Shown: positions 7,840-20,319 of the stretch, piece after piece
Position numbering within the stretch: the stretch's first letter is position 1
How the letters are laid out: every line of letters begins with the position of its first letter
DNA from: Sphingobacterium hungaricum
GTDB lineage: Bacteria > Bacteroidota > Bacteroidia > Sphingobacteriales > Sphingobacteriaceae
Direction of reading: 5' to 3'
Assembly: GCF_015210005.1 (NCBI RefSeq)
Contig: NZ_MU158697.1
Span: forward strand, 62,001-126,000
DNA: 64,000 nucleotides
Notes under the pieces: model-generated
Database searches by the model: none
Seen by the model: only the letters and a program-made list of their open reading frames with translations
Told to the model about the DNA's origin: nothing
Program-made: the position numbers and the translations under genes

Positions 7840-7847
7840 TATATTTG
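7840..7847 (+). promoter_or_regulatory. -7 box (TATATTTG) directly before the DUF4254 gene
   Basis: TATATTTG is a perfect match to TAnnTTTG and ends three bases before the ATG at 7851. In Bacteroidota the transcript starts about four bases after this box, which would place it on the ATG itself. No clear TTG -33 element is visible. Confidence 0.5.
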
Positions 7848-7850
7848 TAC

Positions 7851-8456
7851 ATGATTAGTTCAATTGCAAATTCTGTTTTCCAACGTGCCATCGATGATTA
7901 TCATGTGTACGATGCGATCGATCATCCCATGGAAAATCCTTATGCTCAAGATGGCATAGAACATTTATTCTATTTAAAATGTTGGATAGATACGATGCAA
8001 TGGCATATGGAAGATGTGGTTCGCAATCCAGAAATTGATCCTGCAGAAGCATTGAACTGGAAGAGAAGAATCGATTCGTCGAATCAATACCGGACCGATA
8101 CCGTTGAATACATTGACAGTTATTATTTAGCCAAGTTTGCGGATGTGGAAGCTTTGGCGGATGCAAAAGTGAATACCGAAAGCCCGGCTTGGGCGCTGGA
8201 TCGCTTATCTATTCTGGCATTGAAAATCTATCACATGGAACAAGAAACTTTGCGTTCGGATGCTGCCCCAGATCACATAGCTTCTTGTCAGCAAAAGTTG
8301 AACATCTTATTGGAGCAACGAAACGACCTTTCGCAAAGCATCGACGAGTTGCTGACGGATATTGCCGTAGGCATAAAATACATGAAAGTCTACAAACAGA
8401 TGAAAATGTATAACGATCCTTCGATGAATCCTGTTTTATACGCAAATAAAAAATAA
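7851..8456 (+). CDS. DUF4254 domain-containing protein
   Basis: A 201-residue soluble, mostly alpha-helical acidic protein of the DUF4254 family, recognised from its opening MISSIANSVFQRAIDDYHVYD and the DHPMENPY segment. No biochemical function is established for the family. Rich charge and a helix-rich middle (residues 90-180) are visible, with no signal peptide or membrane segment. I chose ATG 7851 rather than the TTG two codons earlier because the family begins at MIS and the TTG is part of the -7 box. It directly precedes a GT9 heptosyltransferase-like gene by seven bases, suggesting a shared transcript and a link to envelope glycan assembly; that link is inference. Confidence 0.8.
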   Translation: MISSIANSVFQRAIDDYHVYDAIDHPMENPYAQDGIEHLFYLKCWIDTMQWHMEDVVRNPEIDPAEALNWKRRIDSSNQYRTDTVEYIDSYYLAKFADVEALADAKVNTESPAWALDRLSILALKIYHMEQETLRSDAAPDHIASCQQKLNILLEQRNDLSQSIDELLTDIAVGIKYMKVYKQMKMYNDPSMNPVLYANKK

Positions 8457-8463
8457 GCCTTTC

Positions 8464-9480
8464 ATGAAGCGCGTACTTGTAACCCGATTTTCAGCAATGG
8501 GTGATGTGGCCATGGTTGCATCAGTTTTAGCTGAATTTCAGGAACAAAATCCCGATACGGAAGTGATTGTTGTTACGCGCAAGCCTTTCTTCGCTTTTTT
8601 TGATGGAATTCCTCGCATCCGTTTTCATGCTATCGAACCCAAATCCAAACACAAAGGATTTTTTGGATTGTTACGGCTATATGATGAACTGAAAACCTAC
8701 AAAGCGGATTATTTTGCTGACTTACATAATAATCTAAGAACGAAATTTCTTACGGGCTTATTCAAGTTTAATTCAATTAACTTAGCGATTCTCGACAAAG
8801 GTCGAGAAGAAAAAAAAGCGTTAACAAGTCCGCACAACAAAGTATTAAAACCTTTGGAAAGAACGGTCGAACGCTATGCCGATGTATTTCGTTCTTTAGG
8901 TTTTAATTTGACTTTAACGAATCAACTGAAACCCGCACATCGGGAACTTCCTGAACAATATCAGGATTTATTCAGGACAGCGAAACCAAAAATTGGAATT
9001 GCCCCGTTTGCGCAACATCCGTATAAAGTTTTTCCGCTAAAGAAAATGGAAGAAGTAATTCGATACCTTTCGGAACATTCCTACCAAGTTTTTATTTTTG
9101 GAGGCGGTCAGCAAGAATTTGATACAGCAGAAAACTGGAGCAAAAATTATTCAGGCATTACGAACAGCATCAATCAATTTTCGATTTCGGAAGAGTTGAA
9201 TATTATCGCTAATTTAGATTTAATGGTTTCAATGGATTCTTCAGGCATGCATATGGCTTCGTTAGTAGGTGTTCGATGTGTTTCAATTTGGGGCGCAACG
9301 CATCCCTATGCGGGCTTTTTAGGTTACGGCCAGCGAGAAGATGATTGTGTTCAAGTCAATCATCCAAACCGTCCGAGTTCGGTTTACGGCAATAAGCCTT
9401 GCATATGTGACGGAGTTGAAGCAATAGATTTGGTTACTGCGGAAATGGTCATCGATAAGATAAAATCAATATGCGAATAG
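8464..9480 (+). CDS. glycosyltransferase family 9 (heptosyltransferase-like)
   Basis: GT9/ADP-heptose:LPS heptosyltransferase-like protein, 338 residues, likely adding a sugar to the lipopolysaccharide core at the inner face of the inner membrane. The N-terminal Rossmann region starts MKRVLVTRFSAMGDVAMVASVL, the typical GT9 opening with the GD of the acceptor domain. The C-terminal donor domain carries GIAPFAQHPYKVFP near residues 178-191 and SMDSSGMHMASLVGVRCVSIWGATHP near 258-283. The acceptor and true donor sugar cannot be read from sequence. It overlaps the next GT4 gene by ten bases, consistent with coupling. Confidence 0.88.
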   Translation: MKRVLVTRFSAMGDVAMVASVLAEFQEQNPDTEVIVVTRKPFFAFFDGIPRIRFHAIEPKSKHKGFFGLLRLYDELKTYKADYFADLHNNLRTKFLTGLFKFNSINLAILDKGREEKKALTSPHNKVLKPLERTVERYADVFRSLGFNLTLTNQLKPAHRELPEQYQDLFRTAKPKIGIAPFAQHPYKVFPLKKMEEVIRYLSEHSYQVFIFGGGQQEFDTAENWSKNYSGITNSINQFSISEELNIIANLDLMVSMDSSGMHMASLVGVRCVSIWGATHPYAGFLGYGQREDDCVQVNHPNRPSSVYGNKPCICDGVEAIDLVTAEMVIDKIKSICE

Positions 9481-10574
9481 GTTTCGATGCAAAACGATAT
9501 TTTTTTAACCGAACGGGATTAGGCAATTACAGCCGTGATTTGGTTCGCATTTTGCAAACCTATTATCCGGAAAATGACTATGTTTTGTATTCTCCAAAAG
9601 TCCCGGAAAACTTCATTCCGTCGGATCAATTACGTTTAAAAACACCAAGCAGTTTTTTTGGCAAACTATCACCTTCATTTTGGCGGTACAAAAGCATGTC
9701 GAATGACTTAAAGCAAGATGAAATTGAGATCTATCATGGATTATCTGGAGAAATTCCGATAGGATTATCTGATTCCCCGATCAAAACTGTCGTGACTATC
9801 CACGATTTAATTTTTATCCGCTTCCCTGAATTATACAAACCCATTGACCGCAAAATCTATCAGAAGAAAATGCAATCTGCGGCAGACAATGCGGACAAAA
9901 TAATCGCGATCAGCGAGCAAACAAAAAGGGACATTATCGACTTCTTAAAAATCCCAGAAGAAAAGATACAGGTAGTCTATCAAGGATGCCATCCCGCTTT
10001 TAAAACACCGAAATCTGAACAAGAAAAAGAGTTGGTGAGCGGCAAATACCAATTGCCTGAACAATTCATCTTAAATGTAGGTTCGATCGAACCTCGAAAA
10101 AATGCATTTCAGATTGTAAAAGCGATTGAGCAAACAGCTATTCCATTGGTCATTATTGGGAAAGACACGGCCTATGCTGAAGAAATCAAACAGTATGTCG
10201 AAAAAAATCAATTGACAAATCAGGTGATTTTTCTGAAAGGAATTTCCATGGAAGATTTAGCGACGATTTATTCTTTAGCCAACATATTTGTGTACCCTTC
10301 CAAATTTGAAGGATTTGGAATCCCAATTATTGAAGCGTTATATTCTAGCACTCCGGTTATCACGACGAATTCTGGCGTTTTCCCCGAAGCGGCTGGTCCG
10401 AATTCGGTTTTTGTCGACCCTGAAAATATCAACGAAATTTCCGCTGCAATTCAGCGCATTTGGGCTGATGAAGATTTGCAAGAATCCATGAAAATAGCAG
10501 GGCTGGAATTTGCGCAGCGATTCAATGATGATGTGCTTGCGAAGCAAGTCATGGATATTTACCGTTCTATTTAA
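9471..10574 (+). CDS. glycosyltransferase family 4
   Basis: GT-B fold glycosyltransferase, 367 residues. The N-terminal half opens MRIGFDAKRYFFNRTGLGNYSRDLV, typical of GT4 mannosyl-type transferases, and has TIHDLIF near residue 105. The C-terminal donor-binding half has NVGSIEPRKN near 200 and FVYPSKFEGFGIPIIEALYSSTPVITTN near 272-300, containing the EGFGIPIIEA retaining-transferase motif. It overlaps the upstream GT9 gene by ten bases and the opposite-strand GT32 gene by four bases at its 3' end. It probably acts on LPS core or O-glycan; the substrate is unknown. Confidence 0.88.
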   Translation: MRIGFDAKRYFFNRTGLGNYSRDLVRILQTYYPENDYVLYSPKVPENFIPSDQLRLKTPSSFFGKLSPSFWRYKSMSNDLKQDEIEIYHGLSGEIPIGLSDSPIKTVVTIHDLIFIRFPELYKPIDRKIYQKKMQSAADNADKIIAISEQTKRDIIDFLKIPEEKIQVVYQGCHPAFKTPKSEQEKELVSGKYQLPEQFILNVGSIEPRKNAFQIVKAIEQTAIPLVIIGKDTAYAEEIKQYVEKNQLTNQVIFLKGISMEDLATIYSLANIFVYPSKFEGFGIPIIEALYSSTPVITTNSGVFPEAAGPNSVFVDPENINEISAAIQRIWADEDLQESMKIAGLEFAQRFNDDVLAKQVMDIYRSI

Positions 10575-11233
10575 TCTTCTTTTATGACCGTGATCTGCTT
10601 CTGAAGTTTTTTCCAGTGCAATTTCCGATCACCATAAATAAAGATCTTTCCAAACTTGTATTTGAACTGCATCATTCCTTTATAGTCATCTTCAACAATG
10701 CGATGCGGAATCGACGGATCCTCCGCCAAACAGTCGTTAATAGCTTTTGTATAAATCGTTGGGCCAGTCAATGCATGAACATCATGCAGATGTCTTTTCT
10801 GATTAATATTATCGACGATGTATTCGATTGTTCGGGCTAGAAATGGATGGCCTTTTTCATAGATCAAAGCCCATTGCGCAAAAAATTCTTGGTGCCTTTT
10901 CTCTCTCGTAATTACCGCAACATCATCTTCTCTGATAAACTTATCCAAGGAAGTTAAGATATCGCTATCTAAATCCAAGTAGATGCCACCATGAATATAC
11001 AATACGGCATACCGAAAGAAATCTGCTTTCGCCGCTCCAATTTGAAGTTTAGAATAAGCCTGATAAACTTCTTGATCAAAATTTTCTTCCATAAATTTCT
11101 CTATCCGTTGATCATCATAAAATTCATACGAATAGGATTTATTCTTCTTCATAAAAATCCAGATATACAATTTTGTAATCCAAGGAATTTTGGAAGTTTT
11201 AAAAGTTTGATATATTGTTTTGGGAATTGCCAA
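10571..11233 (-). CDS. GT32-type glycosyltransferase with DXD motif
   Basis: A 220-residue protein of the DXD sugar-binding/OCH1-like (GT32) group. It begins MAIPKTIYQTF, the usual I-P-K-x-I-x-Q-x-W/F opening, and contains KADFFRYAVLYIHGGIYLDLDSD near residues 68-91, where the DXD metal/nucleotide-sugar motif sits. No signal peptide. It is the last gene of a minus-strand group with the paralogue gene at 11273 and the GT4 at 12301, and is convergent with the plus-strand GT4 (four-base overlap of ends). A role in capsule or O-antigen synthesis is inferred from neighbours. Confidence 0.85.
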   Translation of the reverse strand: MAIPKTIYQTFKTSKIPWITKLYIWIFMKKNKSYSYEFYDDQRIEKFMEENFDQEVYQAYSKLQIGAAKADFFRYAVLYIHGGIYLDLDSDILTSLDKFIREDDVAVITREKRHQEFFAQWALIYEKGHPFLARTIEYIVDNINQKRHLHDVHALTGPTIYTKAINDCLAEDPSIPHRIVEDDYKGMMQFKYKFGKIFIYGDRKLHWKKLQKQITVIKED

Positions 11234-11272
11234 AGTATCGTATTTAAGTAAATAAAATAAATTAATATGACA

Positions 11273-12304
11273 TTAGCTAATTTTAGGCAACGAAATTTGT
11301 TGATAAGGACTAATCTGCAAAACATATTTAATCCAATTGTCGAAGCTGTATTTATGAACTAAATCTTGATCCAATTCAACATAAGGAGATTGAATAAATT
11401 CTAAAAGCCCGTCAAAATTTTCATTCTCAATAATGTAGATGTTTTCAGGACGATAAAAATCATAAAATCGTATTTCTTTGTTATTCGTAATCAGTTTTTT
11501 ATTGTTTCCTAATGCTTCGAAAACACGGAAAGAAAGGCCATTGTGTACATCATCTAACAAATCTACGAGTACTTTAGCCTTGTGTAAATTTTCTAAATTC
11601 TCTTGATAATTTACATATTGACTTGTTACTGTAATCGAAGAGTCTTTATATAGCTCAAGTTTTTTTTGATTGCCCGTAACAACATGAATATGAGAACTTA
11701 TCTCTTGATTACGAAAAAAATTACCTAAAGAAATTAACTGATCCATTCTTTTTCTTATGAAACTACCAACGTAGTAAACATCGATACTTGTATGATTAGA
11801 ACTGGAATTTGATTCAATAAAAAAATTAGTTAACGGAAGCAGATGTTCGTAATGATTTAAATCATGAGGGTTGAAAACATAAAATCTATCAAACAAACTG
11901 GTGCTCTCTAGAATAGCAGGAAATCGTTCGATTCCATCCCATTGATATCCAAGTAAAACTTTTGCTTTTTGCTTTATAAGCTGAATAATTTCCTTCGGAT
12001 AATAATCGGCTCGAATTAAGAGAGCATAGTCCAACGGGCTTGAGATGGAATTTATCGTATTTGTAATCTCACGTCCAGTAACTTCGTACTTCAACCTATT
12101 TTTATAGGTTTTATCATTAAAAAGGTTCTTTCTAAGAAAATTTTTAATACGAGAGCCTAAATTTTTGTAGGTAAACTGACTGGTGAAAGGAATTCCAATG
12201 ACTTCAAACCCTAATGATTCAAGTCTTTCTTTAATTTCAATATAAAGAAACCAATCAGGCATACCTAAAATGATAGTTTTGCCCTCGCCTATCTTATTAC
12301 TCAT
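11273..12304 (-). CDS. putative glycosyltransferase, locus paralogue 1 of 3
   Basis: A 343-residue protein homologous by eye to the products at 13563 and 17798. Shared blocks are an N-terminal beta strand plus turn (GKTIILGMPDW), YALLIRADYYP near residues 112-122, GYQWDGIERFP near 138-148, FDRFYVFNPHDL near 157-168, VGSF near 195, and GLSFRVFEALGNNKKLITNN near 272-291. The last block resembles the donor-site end of GT-B enzymes, so a sugar transferase role is plausible but not proved. Its start codon overlaps the upstream GT4 stop (ATGA). This copy is the most diverged of the three. Confidence 0.65.
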   Translation of the reverse strand: MSNKIGEGKTIILGMPDWFLYIEIKERLESLGFEVIGIPFTSQFTYKNLGSRIKNFLRKNLFNDKTYKNRLKYEVTGREITNTINSISSPLDYALLIRADYYPKEIIQLIKQKAKVLLGYQWDGIERFPAILESTSLFDRFYVFNPHDLNHYEHLLPLTNFFIESNSSSNHTSIDVYYVGSFIRKRMDQLISLGNFFRNQEISSHIHVVTGNQKKLELYKDSSITVTSQYVNYQENLENLHKAKVLVDLLDDVHNGLSFRVFEALGNNKKLITNNKEIRFYDFYRPENIYIIENENFDGLLEFIQSPYVELDQDLVHKYSFDNWIKYVLQISPYQQISLPKIS

Positions 12305-13362
12305 CTGTAATTTTTATAAATTTCCCAATAAGATTGAGCTGCATGTTCCCAGCTAAACAATTTACTTCGCTGTTTAATTTGATCAACTTGGGAAGCTGAA
12401 AGTTGCATTTCCGCTAAACCTTTACCCAATTCAATTAGATAATTGGGTTCAAAACTTTCAAAATAACTTGCCACATCTCCCCCAATTTCAGGAAGACTAG
12501 TTTCTTTCGACAATAAAATAGCTGACCCAAAATGCATAGCCTCGACCACAGGAAGTCCAAAACCTTCAGCTAAAGATGGAAAGCAAAAAATCTTGCAATG
12601 ACTATACAAATAATATTTTTCAGCTTCACCGATTGGCCCCGTTATAAAAATTCGGTCTGCAACACCTAGTTTTTCTGCAATATCATTAAATTCAGCTAAG
12701 TAGCTCTGATCTGTAATTAAACCGCTAATTACCAAATTTAACTGATTATCGACTAATAGATAGGGCAACACATGAAAATTCTTTTTCCTGACAAACGTTC
12801 CAATAGAAAATAAAAAAGGCTGTTCAAGATCTAGATTCTCAAAATAGGGCTTTTGAGGCCTAGTTTCTGAATCAATATTATTTCCATTATAAATCACATC
12901 AATTGGTTTTCCGTTCAGTTGACAATAGTGTTTGACTTCATCTTTAACAAAATTTGAAATAGCGACAAGATGTGTTGACGCATCAATATTGTCTTGAATT
13001 TTCTTTAAGTATTTATTTATTTTGGACTGACTTTTTCCTTCTCTAAGAAAATTTAAATCATGGATTGTTAAAACTTTCGTTATTTCTTTTGATTTTGGCA
13101 AATAGGGTGATAATTGGTTGGTGCAATGCCAGATTTGCGGAGGATTCTTGAACAAATGCATAAATTTATGAAAATCATGCACATAAACGTGATTTGCATC
13201 TTGTCCAAAATATGATGTTCCAGTAGGAACATAAAATTTTAAATCAATCGAAGAATCATTTTGAGCTATTTTATTTAATTCGGCTCCTAAATGCAAACAA
13301 AAGTGATATAGTCCTACATTTGGATATTTTAACCTCTCAGCTTCGAAATAAATTTGACTCAT
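12301..13362 (-). CDS. glycosyltransferase family 4
   Basis: GT-B glycosyltransferase of 353 residues. LTIHDLNFL is near residue 103, FSIGTFVRKKNFHVLPYLL (donor-domain start) near 192, and IFCFPSLAEGFGLPVVEAMHFGSAILLSKETSLPEIGG near 270-310 carries the family signature. The open frame extends 43 codons further up, but that part reads like noncoding sequence; ATG 13362 gives MSQIYFEAERLKYPNVGLYHFC, the normal GT4 opening with the glycine of the acceptor loop, so I use it. It heads a three-gene minus-strand group (GT4, paralogue 1, GT32). Confidence 0.87.
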   Translation of the reverse strand: MSQIYFEAERLKYPNVGLYHFCLHLGAELNKIAQNDSSIDLKFYVPTGTSYFGQDANHVYVHDFHKFMHLFKNPPQIWHCTNQLSPYLPKSKEITKVLTIHDLNFLREGKSQSKINKYLKKIQDNIDASTHLVAISNFVKDEVKHYCQLNGKPIDVIYNGNNIDSETRPQKPYFENLDLEQPFLFSIGTFVRKKNFHVLPYLLVDNQLNLVISGLITDQSYLAEFNDIAEKLGVADRIFITGPIGEAEKYYLYSHCKIFCFPSLAEGFGLPVVEAMHFGSAILLSKETSLPEIGGDVASYFESFEPNYLIELGKGLAEMQLSASQVDQIKQRSKLFSWEHAAQSYWEIYKNYR

Positions 13363-13562
13363 CAATAAAAATAAAAGTAAATAGGTGATTCGTAATCCTG
13401 TTAACTTTGATTGACAATTATACAAATATATTTCAATAGATAATCTTATAGGATTAAAAGATTTAATAGTTAGTTTATAATGAATTAACATTTTTTAACT
13501 TACCAAGTGTAACTATTTTAGTGCAGAATCGTTCTATCAGTATTAGAAATAAGTTAGTAGGT

Positions 13563-14579
13563 ATGTTTAAGGGTAAAACAATTCTATTTGGAGCTCCCAG
13601 CAGCTTCGGATTTTCTGCGGTGATAAAAGAGGAACTTTTAAATTTAGGATTTAACATCGTAGATTTCTCGATGATTCATCATGAATTCAAATACAAAAAT
13701 ATTTTTGACCGAGCATATAATTGCTATCGAAAAGTGGTTCACAATGACTATCAATACAAACACCACTTAAAAGCGGAAGCACGTCACGAGCATTTGATGA
13801 ATTATTTGAAGCAAATAGGTCAAGCTGAATATGCGTTATTTATAAGACCTGATTATTTTCCCAAAGATTTCATTAAAGCAGTAAGCAAAAAAGCGAATTC
13901 TTTAATTGCTTATCAATGGGATGGCTTAAATCGTTTTCCCAACGTAAAGGAATATATTCAGTATTTTGATAGTTTCTTTGTTTTCGATGCCGAAGACTTG
14001 GTACATGAAAATGTAAAACCAATCACCAATTTCTATTTTGAGAATATGCAAAATGGTGAATCAAATAAAGGTGCATATTTTTTAGGTTCCTATGAACCTG
14101 AACGTCTTAAACAGATTATTTCTTTGAAAGATTGTTTGGAAGATATGGAATATGAAAATGACTTTTTTATTCAATCGAACAGTCAATCAGCAATAAAAAA
14201 AATAAAAAAACATGGACTCCATCATATTGATTCTGACGTGAATTATGAGGAAAATATCAAAAACACCTTAAATTCAAGTTTATTAATCGATATCCACAAT
14301 CCAGTTCATCATGGATTATCTTTTCGGATTTTTGAGTCCATTGGTTACAACAAAAAAATAATAACGACGAATAAGGAGGTCACAAAATATGATTTTTACC
14401 AAGAAAATAATATTTTTGTTTTGGAGGAAGAAAATTATGGGGATATTAAGAATTTCATCGAAACACCTTATCAGCCCATAGCTCCTTCTATAAAACAAAA
14501 ATATTGTTTTACGAATTGGATTAAATACGTATTAAATACAGAAGGTCATGTTCCATTAAATTTGCCCTCTGTTAATTAA
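13563..14579 (+). CDS. putative glycosyltransferase, locus paralogue 2 of 3
   Basis: A 338-residue protein closely similar to the product at 17798 and less so to that at 11273. Matching blocks include TILFGAPSSFGFS near residues 5-17, YALFIRPDYFPKDF near 95-108, AYQWDGLNRFPNV near 122-134, FFVFDAEDL near 145, GLSFRIFESIGYNKKIITTNKEV near 256-278 and FTNWIKYVLN near 318. A GTG 14 codons upstream is in frame, but ATG 13563 aligns with the N-termini of both paralogues and is chosen. It heads a plus-strand group with GT11, GT2 and GT4 genes. Function in glycan assembly is inferred from location and from the sugar-transferase-like C-terminal block. Confidence 0.65.
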   Translation: MFKGKTILFGAPSSFGFSAVIKEELLNLGFNIVDFSMIHHEFKYKNIFDRAYNCYRKVVHNDYQYKHHLKAEARHEHLMNYLKQIGQAEYALFIRPDYFPKDFIKAVSKKANSLIAYQWDGLNRFPNVKEYIQYFDSFFVFDAEDLVHENVKPITNFYFENMQNGESNKGAYFLGSYEPERLKQIISLKDCLEDMEYENDFFIQSNSQSAIKKIKKHGLHHIDSDVNYEENIKNTLNSSLLIDIHNPVHHGLSFRIFESIGYNKKIITTNKEVTKYDFYQENNIFVLEEENYGDIKNFIETPYQPIAPSIKQKYCFTNWIKYVLNTEGHVPLNLPSVN

Positions 14580-14592
14580 CTGATTGCGCAAT

Positions 14593-15450
14593 TTGAAGAT
14601 TGTAAATTTTATTGGTGGTCTTGGCAATCAGATGTTTCAGTACGCCTTTTATCTGTACCTTATCCAACATCACAGGAGAGTAAAAGCTGATTTACGAGAA
14701 TTTGAGGGTTATCCTTTACATAACGGCTTTGAGCTGACCCAAATTTTCGATATTAAGCTAAAAAAAGCAACTAGCTTAGACATCAATTTACATGATAATA
14801 ATAAAGGCAACTACTTTTGGCGTTTATTCCGTCGGATAAATGGAAGCAGAAAAAGTTATCAAAACGAAAAAATCCATTTTTCGTATGACCAATCGATAAA
14901 GACAGATTCAATGAGTCGTTATTATTGGGGCTATTGGCAAAATCAAAATTATCTTAATCCGATAGAGCCCGAGCTTCGAAAAGCTTTTATTTTTCCAAAA
15001 ATTACGGATAATAAAAATGCGGACCTTTTATCAGAAATCAACAGAAAAAATACAGTTGCAGTACATGTTCGAAGAGGGGATTATGTAAATCATCCCAGCT
15101 TAGGTAATATTTGCGATTTAGCATATTATCAAAAAGCCATTTCGATTATGAAAGAAAAAATCCCGAACGCAACATTTGTTATTTTTTCGAACGATCAACG
15201 ATGGTGTAGAGAAAACTTAGCGGTAGATGATGGCATTTTTGTGGACTGGAATACAGGAAATGAAAGTTTCAGGGACATGCAATTGATGTCTGCATGCAGT
15301 CATCAAATAATCGCTAACAGCAGTTTTAGCTGGTGGGCAGCTTGGTTAAATCCAAATCCAAAAAAGATAATTGTTCAGCCAAAAAAATGGATCAACGATA
15401 ATGCGTTAGATACTTCAGGTTTAGTTTTTAAAAATGCTTTGGAAATCTAA
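14593..15450 (+). CDS. glycosyltransferase family 11 (alpha-1,2-fucosyltransferase-like)
   Basis: GT11 enzyme of about 285 residues; family members transfer L-fucose (or a related 6-deoxysugar) from GDP-fucose to galactose. Diagnostic features are the N-terminal GGLGNQMFQYAFY, VAVHVRRGDYVNHP near residues 157-170 (the HxRRGDY GDP-binding motif) and ANSSFSWWAAWLNPNPKKIIVQPKKW near 240-265. There is no ATG before the first motif; TTG 14593 gives MKIVNFIGGLG as in the family, and TTG 14584 (MRNLKIV) is the alternative. It follows the paralogue-2 gene by a few bases. Confidence 0.87.
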   Translation: MKIVNFIGGLGNQMFQYAFYLYLIQHHRRVKADLREFEGYPLHNGFELTQIFDIKLKKATSLDINLHDNNKGNYFWRLFRRINGSRKSYQNEKIHFSYDQSIKTDSMSRYYWGYWQNQNYLNPIEPELRKAFIFPKITDNKNADLLSEINRKNTVAVHVRRGDYVNHPSLGNICDLAYYQKAISIMKEKIPNATFVIFSNDQRWCRENLAVDDGIFVDWNTGNESFRDMQLMSACSHQIIANSSFSWWAAWLNPNPKKIIVQPKKWINDNALDTSGLVFKNALEI

Positions 15451-15451
15451 C

Positions 15452-16447
15452 ATGGATAATGCGCTCGTAACTATATTTATACCCGTATACAATGCTGAAA
15501 AATATGTTCATGCTGCGATAAAAAGTATCTTAGAACAAAGTTTTACAGATTTCGAACTTTTGATCATCAATGATGGATCGACCGATAACAGTCTAAAAAT
15601 CATTGAAAGTTTCGACGATCCCAGAATCCGAATTATCTCAAACGAAGTAAATATCGGAATTGGCCGTGCCAGAGCTTTGGCTGTCGAGGAGGCTAAAGGA
15701 AAATATTTGGCATTATTGGACGCCGATGATATTGCTTATCCAGACCGAATTCAGAAGCAAGTAGATTTTATGGAACTTAATCCTTCAATCGCAGCTTCAA
15801 GCGGATTTGCAGATGTAATTGATGAGAATTCTGTAAGAACTAATACGACAATTAAAGTTCCAGTCGGACGCAATCTGCCAAGTTTATTATTATTTGAATA
15901 CGTTTTTGTCAATCCTGCGTCCATCTATGTATTGGACGCTGTTCGAAAAGCGGGAAGCTACAATGATCAACTGTGCGAAGATTATGACTTGCTAGTTCGC
16001 ATATCAAGAAATCACAAAATTGCAAACATAGCAGTTCCTTTAATTCAGTATAGGGTTCATAAAGATGGTATTTCAAAAAAGAAACTCAGTCAAATGTATG
16101 AACAAGCGGCTTTAATCCTGGAGAAGCAGTTGCATTTTTTAAAGATATATCCGAATAGAAAAGAATTTGAATTATACAGGAGTTTGATGGTTGGCCAAAA
16201 GCTGATCGATTCTGCAACTTTGGAAGAATACATGAATATCTTGCTGACACTGTTGAAGCATAATGACGAATTAGGAACGTATGAGAAGACGCAATTTAAA
16301 AGCGTGATTTCACAGAAGTGGCAGGATTTAATCAAACATTTTCAACCGAAAAACGGATTTTTTTTGTTGTTTAAAAGTCCTTTGTTCAGTGCCAAGGATA
16401 CAAGTTTTAAAACTTTCAGAAAGCAATTCAAAAATCTTTTTAAATAA
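15452..16447 (+). CDS. glycosyltransferase family 2
   Basis: Inverting GT-A glycosyltransferase of 331 residues. The N-terminal nucleotide-sugar domain shows VTIFIPVYNAEKYVHAAIKSILEQSF near residues 6-31, LLIINDGSTDNS near 36-47 and the metal-binding LLDADDI (DXD) near 86-92. An ED pair (LCEDYDLLVRI) near 172-182 fits the catalytic base region. ATG 15452 is preferred over ATG 15434, which would overlap the GT11 gene by 17 bases and add six residues absent from typical GT2 starts. Likely adds one sugar of the surface glycan. Confidence 0.88.
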   Translation: MDNALVTIFIPVYNAEKYVHAAIKSILEQSFTDFELLIINDGSTDNSLKIIESFDDPRIRIISNEVNIGIGRARALAVEEAKGKYLALLDADDIAYPDRIQKQVDFMELNPSIAASSGFADVIDENSVRTNTTIKVPVGRNLPSLLLFEYVFVNPASIYVLDAVRKAGSYNDQLCEDYDLLVRISRNHKIANIAVPLIQYRVHKDGISKKKLSQMYEQAALILEKQLHFLKIYPNRKEFELYRSLMVGQKLIDSATLEEYMNILLTLLKHNDELGTYEKTQFKSVISQKWQDLIKHFQPKNGFFLLFKSPLFSAKDTSFKTFRKQFKNLFK

Positions 16448-16485
16448 TCTATTTGTTTACTATTTCTATTATTTAAAGTTACTAA

Positions 16486-17649
16486 ATGAAAAAAACACAA
16501 AAATGGCTATCTACAATTGATTCAATAGTAAACTATCCGTCTATTGTTCGTAAAATTAGAAAGGCACAGACAAATACCTTTTTTGTGTTTCCTTTTTACC
16601 ATACTGGTGGTGCTGAACGTGTTCACGCGGATATCTTGAAAGTTTTCAAGAAAGACAATGTCGTCTGCCTATTATCAAACTATTCGGTTGACACAAATTT
16701 GAAACAGGAGTTCCATGAGAATTCGACTGTCATCGATTTAATGAGATTTGGTTGGAAGAAATCCTTCAGAAATCACATGGCCAAAATTGTCGCAACAGAA
16801 ATCAACAAAAAGAAAAATCCCGTAGTATTTGGTTGTAACTCCTATTTTTTCTACGACCTAATTCCTCATTTGAATAAGAACGTACGAATCATTGATCTAT
16901 TTCATGCATTTACTGGAGGAGAGCATTCGTATGAGGAATATTCAAAACCCACATTAGATCGACTTTATGCAAGAGTTGTGCTGGGAAATGTGAATTTAAA
17001 TAAATTTGAAAATTTCTATCAAGAGAATAACATCGATAGTAAAGAAGTACAAAAATTAAAAATTATTCCGAATAAAGTGGATGTTCCAAAATCTAACATC
17101 ACAAAAAGCTTTAACGAAAATTTAAAAATTTATTTTGTAGGTCGTAACTCGAGCGATAAACGTCCAGAGCTATTTATAAAAATTGCCAAAAAAGCCAAAG
17201 AAAAAAACTTGCCGTTCGAATTTTATATGGTAGGAGATTTCCATGAATTCAAAAGTCAAGCAGATTCAAATATTCACATCCTTGGGAGAATTTCAGACAA
17301 AGACCAATTAAATGAGCTGTACGAAAGCGCGCATTTCGTTATGATAACATCTGTAGCCGAAGGTTTCCCAATGGTTTTATTGGAAGGAATGTCTCGAGGC
17401 GCAATACCGATCAGCACGAATGTTGGCGAAGTCTCCAACATTGTAAATGAATCGCAAAGCACAGGATATATTATCGAAAACAGTGATAATCAAGAATTTT
17501 TACTGACGCAATTTATTGCGTTACTGGAGCGAATTATAGAGAATAGACAGCAGTTAGACATTATTTCTCAAAATATCCAAGAGATAGTGAGAATGTATTT
17601 TAGTGAAGAGGTATTTGAAAAAAATTATAGAAATCTTCTTTTCTCTTAA
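16486..17649 (+). CDS. glycosyltransferase family 4
   Basis: GT-B glycosyltransferase, 387 residues. FPFYHTGGAERVHADILKVF near residues 36-55 is the glycine-rich acceptor-domain loop, and HFVMITSVAEGFPMVLLEGMSRGAIPISTNVGEV near 285-318 is the retaining GT4 signature with the EGFPMVLLE glutamates. KIYFVGRNSSDKRPELFIKIAKKAKE near 212-237 opens the donor domain. It follows the GT2 gene by 38 bases on the same strand. The sequence is visibly AT-rich and lysine/asparagine-rich, like the neighbouring glycan genes. Confidence 0.87.
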   Translation: MKKTQKWLSTIDSIVNYPSIVRKIRKAQTNTFFVFPFYHTGGAERVHADILKVFKKDNVVCLLSNYSVDTNLKQEFHENSTVIDLMRFGWKKSFRNHMAKIVATEINKKKNPVVFGCNSYFFYDLIPHLNKNVRIIDLFHAFTGGEHSYEEYSKPTLDRLYARVVLGNVNLNKFENFYQENNIDSKEVQKLKIIPNKVDVPKSNITKSFNENLKIYFVGRNSSDKRPELFIKIAKKAKEKNLPFEFYMVGDFHEFKSQADSNIHILGRISDKDQLNELYESAHFVMITSVAEGFPMVLLEGMSRGAIPISTNVGEVSNIVNESQSTGYIIENSDNQEFLLTQFIALLERIIENRQQLDIISQNIQEIVRMYFSEEVFEKNYRNLLFS

Positions 17650-17797
17650 GATAGATTTTGCAGTTCCACCTGTAATTCTCAATTGATTATAAATAATTTA
17701 TAATAAATTTGAGAATATTCTGTTTTTAGTAAAAAAACTGCATATTAGTTTTATATTGAATTAAACAGACCTATGGGAATTGTATTCATTCTATCAG

Positions 17798-18823
17798 ATG
17801 AGAATAGGTAATAAACGCATAATTTTTGGCGCTCCCCAAAATTCCGGTTTTTCTGACGTCATTCGAAAGGAACTAATAAATTTGGGCTATATTATTGAAG
17901 ATTTTTCAATTAAAGAGGAAGTCTTCGAGTATAAAAGCATATTTCAACGGCTCTATAATCTATATCGAAAAGTCATATTTAACGATTATGATTATAAAAA
18001 AAAGCTGAAGAAAGAAGCCCATAAAAACAGGATGCTTGATCAACTGCAAAAAATACCGCGAGCTGATTATGCCTTTTTTATTCGTCCAGATTTTTTTCCT
18101 TTAGAGTTTATTGCACAAGTAAGAAACAAGGCAGATCGCAGTATTGCTTATCAATGGGATGGCTTAAATAGATATCCAGGGATAGAAAATTATATCCCTC
18201 ATTTTGACCGATTTTACGTCTTCGACCCAGAAGATTTATCCTATCCAAATACTTATCCCACCACAAATTTTTATTTTGATAGTTTTAAATCAATAGAAGT
18301 CATAGATTATAAAAAAGCTTATTTTATTGGATCTTTTGAAGCTGAGCGCATGGATAATATTGTTGCTATCAGGAATCAGCTAACTCAGCTAAATTACGAA
18401 TGTACTATCATAATCTATTCCCCACATACTAGACAAACTTATGAAATAAAAAAATTTGGGTTTACTCATATTGATAAACACATCAATTATTATGAGAACC
18501 TCAATAGTATGATGAGTGCAAGCGTATTAATAGACATTCAAAATCCAATTCACAAAGGATTATCTTTTCGCATTTTCGAATCATTGGGCTATGATAAAAA
18601 AGTCATTACCACAAATCAGAATGTAGTTCATTATGATCTTTTTCACCCGAATAATATTTTCGTATTAAACAACTATAATGCGGAGGATTTAATATCTTTT
18701 TTAAATACTCCTTATGTACAGATAGCAGATAGGATAAAAAAGAAATATAGTTTTACAAATTGGGCAAATTATGTGCTGGATAATGAACAATACCTGCCAA
18801 TAGATTTGCCGATTATTCGCTAA
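17798..18823 (+). CDS. putative glycosyltransferase, locus paralogue 3 of 3
   Basis: A 341-residue member of the same family as the products at 11273 and 13563, closest to the latter. Blocks in order: RIIFGAPQNSGFSDVI near residues 7-22, YAFFIRPDFFPLEF near 96-109, AYQWDGLNRYPGI near 123-135, FDRFYVFDPEDLSYP near 143-157, YFIGSFEAERM near 184, GLSFRIFESLGYDKKVITTNQNV near 257-279 and FTNWANYVLDN near 319. ATG 17798 matches the paralogues' starts; the TTG six codons earlier does not. A 148-base gap without a clear promoter separates it from the GT4 gene; its 3' end overlaps the opposite-strand GT2 by four bases. Confidence 0.65.
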   Translation: MRIGNKRIIFGAPQNSGFSDVIRKELINLGYIIEDFSIKEEVFEYKSIFQRLYNLYRKVIFNDYDYKKKLKKEAHKNRMLDQLQKIPRADYAFFIRPDFFPLEFIAQVRNKADRSIAYQWDGLNRYPGIENYIPHFDRFYVFDPEDLSYPNTYPTTNFYFDSFKSIEVIDYKKAYFIGSFEAERMDNIVAIRNQLTQLNYECTIIIYSPHTRQTYEIKKFGFTHIDKHINYYENLNSMMSASVLIDIQNPIHKGLSFRIFESLGYDKKVITTNQNVVHYDLFHPNNIFVLNNYNAEDLISFLNTPYVQIADRIKKKYSFTNWANYVLDNEQYLPIDLPIIR

Positions 18824-19638
18824 TTGACCGTTTTTTTCGTTAGGCGATAGTAAAACTTCCTAAACCATTCATTTTGGTATTTTTGCTTGTATTTGGTCAT
18901 ATAAAACAAATTTTCAACACCAAGATTGTGATCTATATATAAGTCGTAGTGCTTGTTATAGATCTTTCTGTACGCATTTTGCAACAGTTGATTGCTTTCT
19001 ACTAACTTCCCTATCGAAGATTTAGCTACGTCATGGATCCGGTATTGATAGAGGGGCTGCGGAATAGATTTAACCTTTGTTGGATAATCTCGGATAATTC
19101 TAATCCATAAATCCCAATCTTCATAATATGTGAGCGACTCGTCGAATCCAGCCACCGCTTTAAATGTATTTGCCTTAACCATCCCATAAACAGGGATCAT
19201 ATTTGTTAATAGAAATTTCGAAAAATCGTAATCCGGCAGTTTCCATAAACCACTTTTTGCACCGATGTAATTACTTGCTGGATAAACAATTTCCAAATCG
19301 GGTTCTTTAGAATAGGCACTTACACACGTTTCCACAAACTCAGGGGACAACATATCATCACCATCTAAAAAAACATAGAAATTTCCAGTTGCGTGCTTTG
19401 CTCCGAAATTTCTTGCCGCACTTACTCCTGAATTTTCTTGCTTTAGCAATGTGAATTTTTTAGTGTCCTTTTGCAATAGACCCTCTAATACATCGACGGA
19501 TTGATCAGTAGAGCCATCATCGACAACAATAACTTCAATGGGCGAATATGTTTGTTGGAGAGCGGATTGAACAGATGCCGCGATAAACTTTTGGTTGTTG
19601 TAATTTGGAATAATAACACTGACAAGCGGATCATGCAT
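18820..19638 (-). CDS. glycosyltransferase family 2
   Basis: GT-A glycosyltransferase of 272 residues, beginning MHDPLVSVIIPNYNNQKFIAASVQSAL. Motifs: VIVVDDGSTDQSVDVL near residues 35-50 and the DXD-type VFLDGDDMLSPEF near 87-99; YEDWDLWIRI near 168-177 supplies the catalytic ED region. An in-frame ATG 11 codons upstream (19671) exists, but the family normally starts just before the VSVIIP strand, so 19638 is used. It is alone on the minus strand at the end of the glycan locus, convergent with paralogue 3. Confidence 0.87.
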   Translation of the reverse strand: MHDPLVSVIIPNYNNQKFIAASVQSALQQTYSPIEVIVVDDGSTDQSVDVLEGLLQKDTKKFTLLKQENSGVSAARNFGAKHATGNFYVFLDGDDMLSPEFVETCVSAYSKEPDLEIVYPASNYIGAKSGLWKLPDYDFSKFLLTNMIPVYGMVKANTFKAVAGFDESLTYYEDWDLWIRIIRDYPTKVKSIPQPLYQYRIHDVAKSSIGKLVESNQLLQNAYRKIYNKHYDLYIDHNLGVENLFYMTKYKQKYQNEWFRKFYYRLTKKTVN

Positions 19639-19728
19639 ACCTATTATATTTAATTGCTTTAAGAGAAACACCCTTGTATTTCTTTCTAGTTTAATTAACT
19701 TATATTAATAATTGATTAGAATATTTTT

Positions 19729-19736: not shown

Positions 19737-19824
19737 TAAAAATATTTCACTCAAAATGATTTGGTCAAAATGGATTTTCTATATAATTTTTCGTAAATTA
19801 ATCTTCATTATAAACAGGAAAGTC

Positions 19825-20319
19825 ATGAATAAAACCATCTTCATCATCCGGCACGCAAAAGCCGAACTGCATTCCTTTAATAAACAAGATTTTAAACGGA
19901 ACTTGATTGGCGAGGGAATAGACCGAGCTAAGATTATCGCCAAAAAGCTCAATGAGCAATTAAGCATCGACCAAAAGACGCTATTTATCTCATCCTCCGC
20001 GAATCGAGCGAAGCAGACGGCTGAACTTTTTGCTGATGAGTTGAATTATCCGCAAGATAACATCAGGTTTGAAGAAGAAATTTACGAAGCTTCGGCAAAA
20101 GAAATTTTAACGCTCATCAATTCCATTTCTGATGATTGCAATACGATTCTGTTGTTCGGACATAACCCCGGAATTTCAGCTTTCGTGAACTACTGCTGTG
20201 ACACTTACATCAGTTTGAGGACTTCCGAATGTGCAGAAATAAGGTTGTTGGAAGGAATTGATTTCACAACGCTATCTCACCATATGGCGACCTTAAATCA
20301 ATTGATTAGTGAGGAATAA
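19825..20319 (+). CDS. sixA: SixA-type phosphohistidine phosphatase (histidine phosphatase superfamily)
   Basis: A 164-residue single-domain phosphatase of the branch-1 histidine phosphatase superfamily, related to SixA, which removes phosphate from phosphohistidine in signalling proteins. The catalytic RHAKAE motif sits at residues 8-13 and the second histidine in LLFGHNPG near 113-120. The frame extends 23 codons upstream (MIWSKW...), but ATG 19825 gives MNKTIFIIRHAKAE, the conserved beginning of the family. It stands alone between the glycan locus and a small antitoxin-like gene. The physiological substrate is unknown. Confidence 0.85.
   Translation: MNKTIFIIRHAKAELHSFNKQDFKRNLIGEGIDRAKIIAKKLNEQLSIDQKTLFISSSANRAKQTAELFADELNYPQDNIRFEEEIYEASAKEILTLINSISDDCNTILLFGHNPGISAFVNYCCDTYISLRTSECAEIRLLEGIDFTTLSHHMATLNQLISEE

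Follow-up and report, generated by a model that had tools for sequence, protein, structure and literature searches.

Three WaaS/CpsH-family glycosyltransferase genes within an ordered gene island of Sphingobacterium

A 64,000-nucleotide stretch of the Sphingobacterium hungaricum genome (assembly GCF_015210005.1, contig NZ_MU158697.1, positions 62,001–126,000; hereafter the window) carries three mutually similar genes set among glycosyltransferase genes of other kinds. This arrangement raises the question of what the three products are, and whether they would make successive additions to one glycan or serve as alternative enzymes for a single step. The genes concerned, with their flanks, are the following (positions within the window).

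7845–8456, plus strand: DUF4254 protein, proximal flank of the island (PF14063, 203.6 bits)
8464–9480, plus strand: GT9 (heptosyltransferase-like), conserved proximal gene in a conserved position (PF01075, 73.1 bits)
9471–10574, plus strand: GT4 glycosyltransferase GT4a, the usual proximal gene (PF00534, 116.4 bits)
10571–11233, minus strand: GT32-type (DXD sugar-binding) glycosyltransferase (PF04488, 56.9 bits)
11273–12304, minus strand: copy 1 (W1), WaaS/CpsH-family glycosyltransferase of subfamily B, 343 aa (NF053598, 280.1 bits)
12301–13491, minus strand: GT4 glycosyltransferase GT4b, adjoining subfamilies B and E (PF00534, 76.5 bits)
13563–14579, plus strand: copy 2 (W2), WaaS/CpsH-family glycosyltransferase of subfamily C, 338 aa (NF053598, 278.4 bits)
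14584–15450, plus strand: GT11 (alpha-1,2-fucosyltransferase-type; PF01531, 128.5 bits)
15434–16447, plus strand: GT2 glycosyltransferase (PF00535, 118.6 bits)
16486–17649, plus strand: GT4 glycosyltransferase GT4c (PF00534, 74.5 bits)
17798–18823, plus strand: copy 3 (W3), WaaS/CpsH-family glycosyltransferase of subfamily C, 341 aa (NF053598, 264.7 bits)
18820–19671, minus strand: putative GT2-like glycosyltransferase, an open reading frame with relatives throughout the islands
19756–20319, plus strand: SixA-like phosphohistidine phosphatase (named from sequence), distal flank and conserved distal boundary

Three homologous members of a named family

The reading frames of all three copies are intact; copy 1 overlaps its upstream GT4 gene by 4 nt, and a plus-strand run that includes the GT11 gene begins at copy 2. 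Longer alternative starts exist for copy 2 (GTG at 13521) and copy 3 (TTG at 17780), and the ATG starts at 13563 and 17798 agree with the family profile, whose match starts at residue 6–7. Pairwise BLASTP demonstrates that the three genes are homologous (copy 1 versus copy 2, 38% identity over 339 positions, E 4e-83; copy 1 versus copy 3, 37%, E 2e-68; copy 2 versus copy 3, 51%, E 9e-122), with copies 2 and 3 the closest pair, as a sequence-only reading of this DNA had proposed. The motifs listed in that reading recur in the same order in an alignment of all three products, and the interleaving with other glycosyltransferase genes is borne out by Pfam, which gives GT9, GT4, GT32, GT4, GT11, GT2 and GT4 in addition to the GT2-like gene at 18820–19671. 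A search of the 4.06 Mb genome returned no copies beyond these three. Identities between the copies in the N- and C-terminal domains (43/34, 38/33 and 54/48%) display no pattern of conserved donor and divergent acceptor domains.

A Pfam scan of the copies gave no family above cut-off (copy 1 reaches PF13524, Glyco_trans_1_2, at a sub-threshold 12.8 bits) and a PHROGs search with the family gave no match. The NCBIfam model NF053598, "WaaS/CpsH family glycosyltransferase", is matched over its full length by the three copies (264.7–280.1 bits against a curated cut-off of 60 bits; model positions 1–317 or 1–318 of 318), and it is also matched by 71/71 relatives tested and by E. coli K-12 WaaS (179 bits). 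Its name is of subfamily level and states neither donor nor acceptor, and a search for the referent of 'CpsH' in it did not find one. The window copies are, judged by sequence, ordinary members of this known family, and the earlier label of an uncharacterised family falls away: NCBIfam already names it, and it includes WaaS (RfaS), whose role as the rhamnosyltransferase acting on the LPS core of E. coli K-12 is established genetically (reviews: PMC4651636, PMC6358824). The expectation that a profile search would meet no well characterised family stands only in part, as the family is named and its function known genetically in E. coli, but a PDB sequence search found no relative and no solved member structure.

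E. coli K-12 WaaS acts once the third Kdo is added (PMC4651636, PMC6358824), on an acceptor linked to that Kdo (PMC4651636). It shares with the window copies a similar length and the C-terminal signature D...H/Q-x-G-[LW]-[ST]-x-R-x-x-E...KKLIT, but it has only ~22% identity to copy 2, is present as a single copy, sits on a long branch in the family tree and has not kept the N-terminal YQWDG motif of the window copies. Its gene lies in an LPS-core cluster; the window copies lie in an island containing GT9.

Among 150 related genomes searched, the family occurs in 53 of the same genus and 2 of other families, with 1–4 copies each. Further relatives are found in Parapedobacter, Chryseobacterium, Capnocytophaga, Arachidicoccus, Neisseria, Snodgrassella and Eikenella, as well as in Acinetobacter, Moraxella, Pasteurellaceae and Campylobacter. 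A WaaS relative annotated as 'hypothetical protein' is carried by Providencia and Citrobacter conjugative plasmids (L173:7995-8888). The only matches in a phage search were weak, partial and unannotated (MG065691.1 and MG065686.1 from Campylobacter phage, and OR848726.1, a 4-kb Listeria phage record), and these may represent host DNA.

Predicted fold and conserved residues

We modelled copy 2 with AlphaFold2 from a 71-sequence alignment drawn from loci of named genomes (pLDDT 94.9, pTM 0.91), superseding an earlier run on an alignment of the three copies only (pLDDT 57.6). Foldseek against the PDB places the model closest to the GT4-type enzymes SenB (E ~1e-7) and BshA (E ~1e-6; probability 1.00 for the matches), over about 270–380 columns at 8–13% identity. 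The predicted fold of copy 2 is GT-B with GT4-type enzymes as its nearest neighbours, which agrees with the structural expectation of the sequence-only reading and, with the NF053598 match, upholds its description of the products as putative glycosyltransferases. TM-scores against solved GT-B structures, SenB and BshA included, are modest (0.43–0.54), which may stem partly from a difference in how the two domains are angled to each other.

Six residues (R181, D243, G251, R255, E258 and F298, copy-2 numbering) do not vary among 21 diverse members, E. coli WaaS among them, in a family whose sequences range from 22 to 51% identity to copy 2. All three window copies carry these residues plus H249, K264 and K265. 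In GT-B enzymes the C-terminal domain holds the nucleotide sugar. By inference from this, the C-terminal domain of each copy (R181, D243, the signature H249-x-G-L-S-F-R-x-F-E258 and K264-K265) would hold the nucleotide donor, with the sugar passed to a glycan acceptor contacting the N-terminal domain.

Subfamilies, order and strand of the island

A tree of 99 family members resolves subfamilies that we label A1, A2, B, C, D and E. Copy 1 belongs to subfamily B (clade support 99/94). Copies 2 and 3 belong to C, a group supported at only 87/77, and fall inside a five-sequence clade (98/88). Their pairing with each other is weak (83/27) and their terminal branches are long, so that they are not a recent duplicate pair.

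Most Sphingobacterium copies sit between a proximal nuoM-nuoN-DUF4254-GT9(-GT4) segment and a distal sixA-yyaL-slyD segment, in an island whose interior holds variable glycosyltransferases on both strands (GT2, GT4, GT8, GT11, GT32 and GT90 types). The flanking DUF4254 gene was recovered in 84/94 same-genus genomes searched, and 16/16 sampled genomes that have no family member at this site possess the same island with other genes. Read outward from nuoN across 45 islands, each subfamily keeps to one strand (plus for C, 28/28; A1, 13/13; and A2, 6/6; minus for D, 18/18; B, 10/10; and E, 5/5), and all 45/45 ordered pairs follow the order A1, A2, B or E, C, D, including 7/7 pairs in which B precedes C; this order was derived from the same data on which it was tested, and the islands and species are related by descent. 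The window reads B minus, C plus, C plus, and is the sole island of the 45 with two C copies.

Constant strand is a feature of most island genes and not of the WaaS-type family alone. Relative to nuoN, GT32 (24/24) and GT90 (16/16) genes are always on the minus strand, and GT11 (13/13) and GT4a (38/38) genes always on the plus strand; one GT2/GT7C family (14:7) and one GT4 family (6:1) depart from this pattern. Across 61 Sphingobacterium islands (L034-L093, L177-L192 and the window), most glycosyltransferase families are single-stranded with respect to nuoN despite strongly varying gene content. Strand has probably been kept by vertical descent together with homologous replacement. Outside the island, two Sphingobacterium genomes with no DUF4254 match carry a tandem pair of family members (subfamily T; L062:8543-10755 and L073:8294-10504).

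We tentatively propose, at slightly under even confidence, that this is a genus-wide lipooligosaccharide (LOS) island with a fixed grammar, in which every one of six ancient subfamilies of WaaS type, like most of the other glycosyltransferases, has one slot and one strand, species diversify their surface glycan as they fill or empty these slots, and the window strain has doubled its C slot. The subfamily-slot architecture is new here, and we regard it as moderately interesting.

Proposed donor, product and roles of the copies

As donor we would tentatively name dTDP-L-rhamnose or a similar 6-deoxyhexose, because E. coli WaaS uses rhamnose and relatives adjoin rml genes; by this analogy we judge rhamnose as donor of the window copies an even proposition. 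Twelve relatives outside the island, belonging to two separate regions of the tree, have at least two rml genes within about 10 kb. The strongest cases are in Acinetobacter (L151:1474-5500 and L153:9986-14500), where the family gene immediately precedes rmlBDAC and is co-oriented with it in an operon-like arrangement, and in a Sphingobacterium subgroup (L086, L088 and L089), where rmlBCDA lies a few kb upstream of the family gene. The Providencia plasmid relative is within a polysaccharide cluster with rfbA and rfbC. Near Snodgrassella members the rml genes, among which rmlD was not found, may be no more than the arrangement usual in Neisseriaceae. In the genome of the window strain rmlABCD lie together (C1:621k), away from the island.

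The foremost competing view is that donors vary within the family (for example fucose, 6-deoxytalose or amino sugars) and that rhamnose in E. coli is a special case. It draws on the strong divergence of the subfamilies (22–51% identity to copy 2), on the island loci, 0/74 of which have two or more rml genes, on the island's GT11 fucosyltransferase-type gene, by which other deoxysugar donors are probably available, and on members that adjoin NDP-sugar epimerase-type genes (L034). Against this, members from two separate regions of the tree adjoin rml operons, and the one characterised member that we found uses rhamnose (PMC4651636); we consider varied donors a real but lesser possibility, at roughly one chance in three. 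Genome co-occurrence does not help, since nearly every genome of the genus has rml genes, whether or not it has the family (RmlD, 150 genomes). One genome (G100) has RmlD below cut-off and at first seemed to carry the family but lack the rhamnose pathway; RmlC scores above cut-off there, and it offers no clear counter-example.

The island would build the outer part of a lipooligosaccharide on a Kdo-lipid A core. The genome has a Kdo transferase domain and dTDP-rhamnose genes and no match to PF04932 (the WaaL/Wzy ligase-polymerase domain), which makes a lipooligosaccharide likelier than a polymer; the "repeat unit" of the sequence-only reading is accordingly doubtful. A capsule, or the outer protein O-glycan known from Bacteroidota, seems to us a rather unlikely product of the island, at around one chance in four. 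Bacteroidota protein O-glycan loci do carry variable glycosyltransferases, and deoxyhexoses occur in these glycans (PMC12871550). Moreover, neither of the ADP-heptose genes hldE and gmhA scored above cut-off in the genome, so the GT9 gene (8464–9480) is no proof of a heptose-containing LPS core; the enzyme probably uses a donor other than heptose, or else the pathway is a different one. Conversely, a GT9 flank gene is typical of LPS core loci, and the LFG-type locus of Bacteroides opens with metG and the flippase gene wzx (PMC12871550), neither of which is seen in the window island, where flanks are nuoN-DUF4254-GT9 and sixA-yyaL-slyD and no flippase is present among the open reading frames from 8464 to 19671. 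An LFG-type protein O-glycan locus is thus disfavoured, and lipooligosaccharide stays our preferred product.

The choice posed at the outset, between successive additions and alternative enzymes, divides by subfamily. The co-occurrence, across the genus, of ancient subfamilies with constant order and strand favours distinct steps for copy 1 and copies 2/3, and the subfamily slots argue against both their interchangeability and switching by inversion; for copy 2 versus copy 3 either role may apply. It is unlikely, at perhaps one chance in five, that the copies all catalyse one step, as alternatives or backups or as a means of antigenic switching. Such a role would suit the shared subfamily and five-sequence clade of copies 2 and 3, and the window's being the only island with two C copies. 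It sits poorly with copy 1 deriving from another ancient subfamily that precedes C wherever both occur, with the retention of all conserved residues in each copy, with the weak copy 2/3 pairing and long end branches that speak against recent duplication, and with the want of long direct or inverted repeats for switching (the best inverted repeat has arms of 40 nt at 70%). DNA inversion and gene conversion among the copies were likewise rejected because no supporting repeats were found, and inversion is also opposed by the genus-wide fixed strand.

Our preferred reading is that all three copies are putative GT-B sugar transferases of the WaaS/CpsH family in a lipooligosaccharide island, using dTDP-L-rhamnose or a near relative, with copy 1 (B) and copies 2/3 (C) acting at different, successive positions and copies 2 and 3, of one subfamily, serving two sites of the same glycan. 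As a composite we rate it evenly balanced; conserved gene order is not in itself proof of assembly order.

Literature searches found no relevant paper on Sphingobacterium LOS genetics, which appears little studied. The added value here is the subfamily-slot architecture together with a functional hypothesis. Three 'unknown' genes now belong to a family with one genetically established function, allowing donor and acceptor predictions, and the confident copy 2 model gives a starting point for a family in which we found no solved structure. The ordered two-strand island is a natural comparative system for relating surface-glycan structure to gene content.
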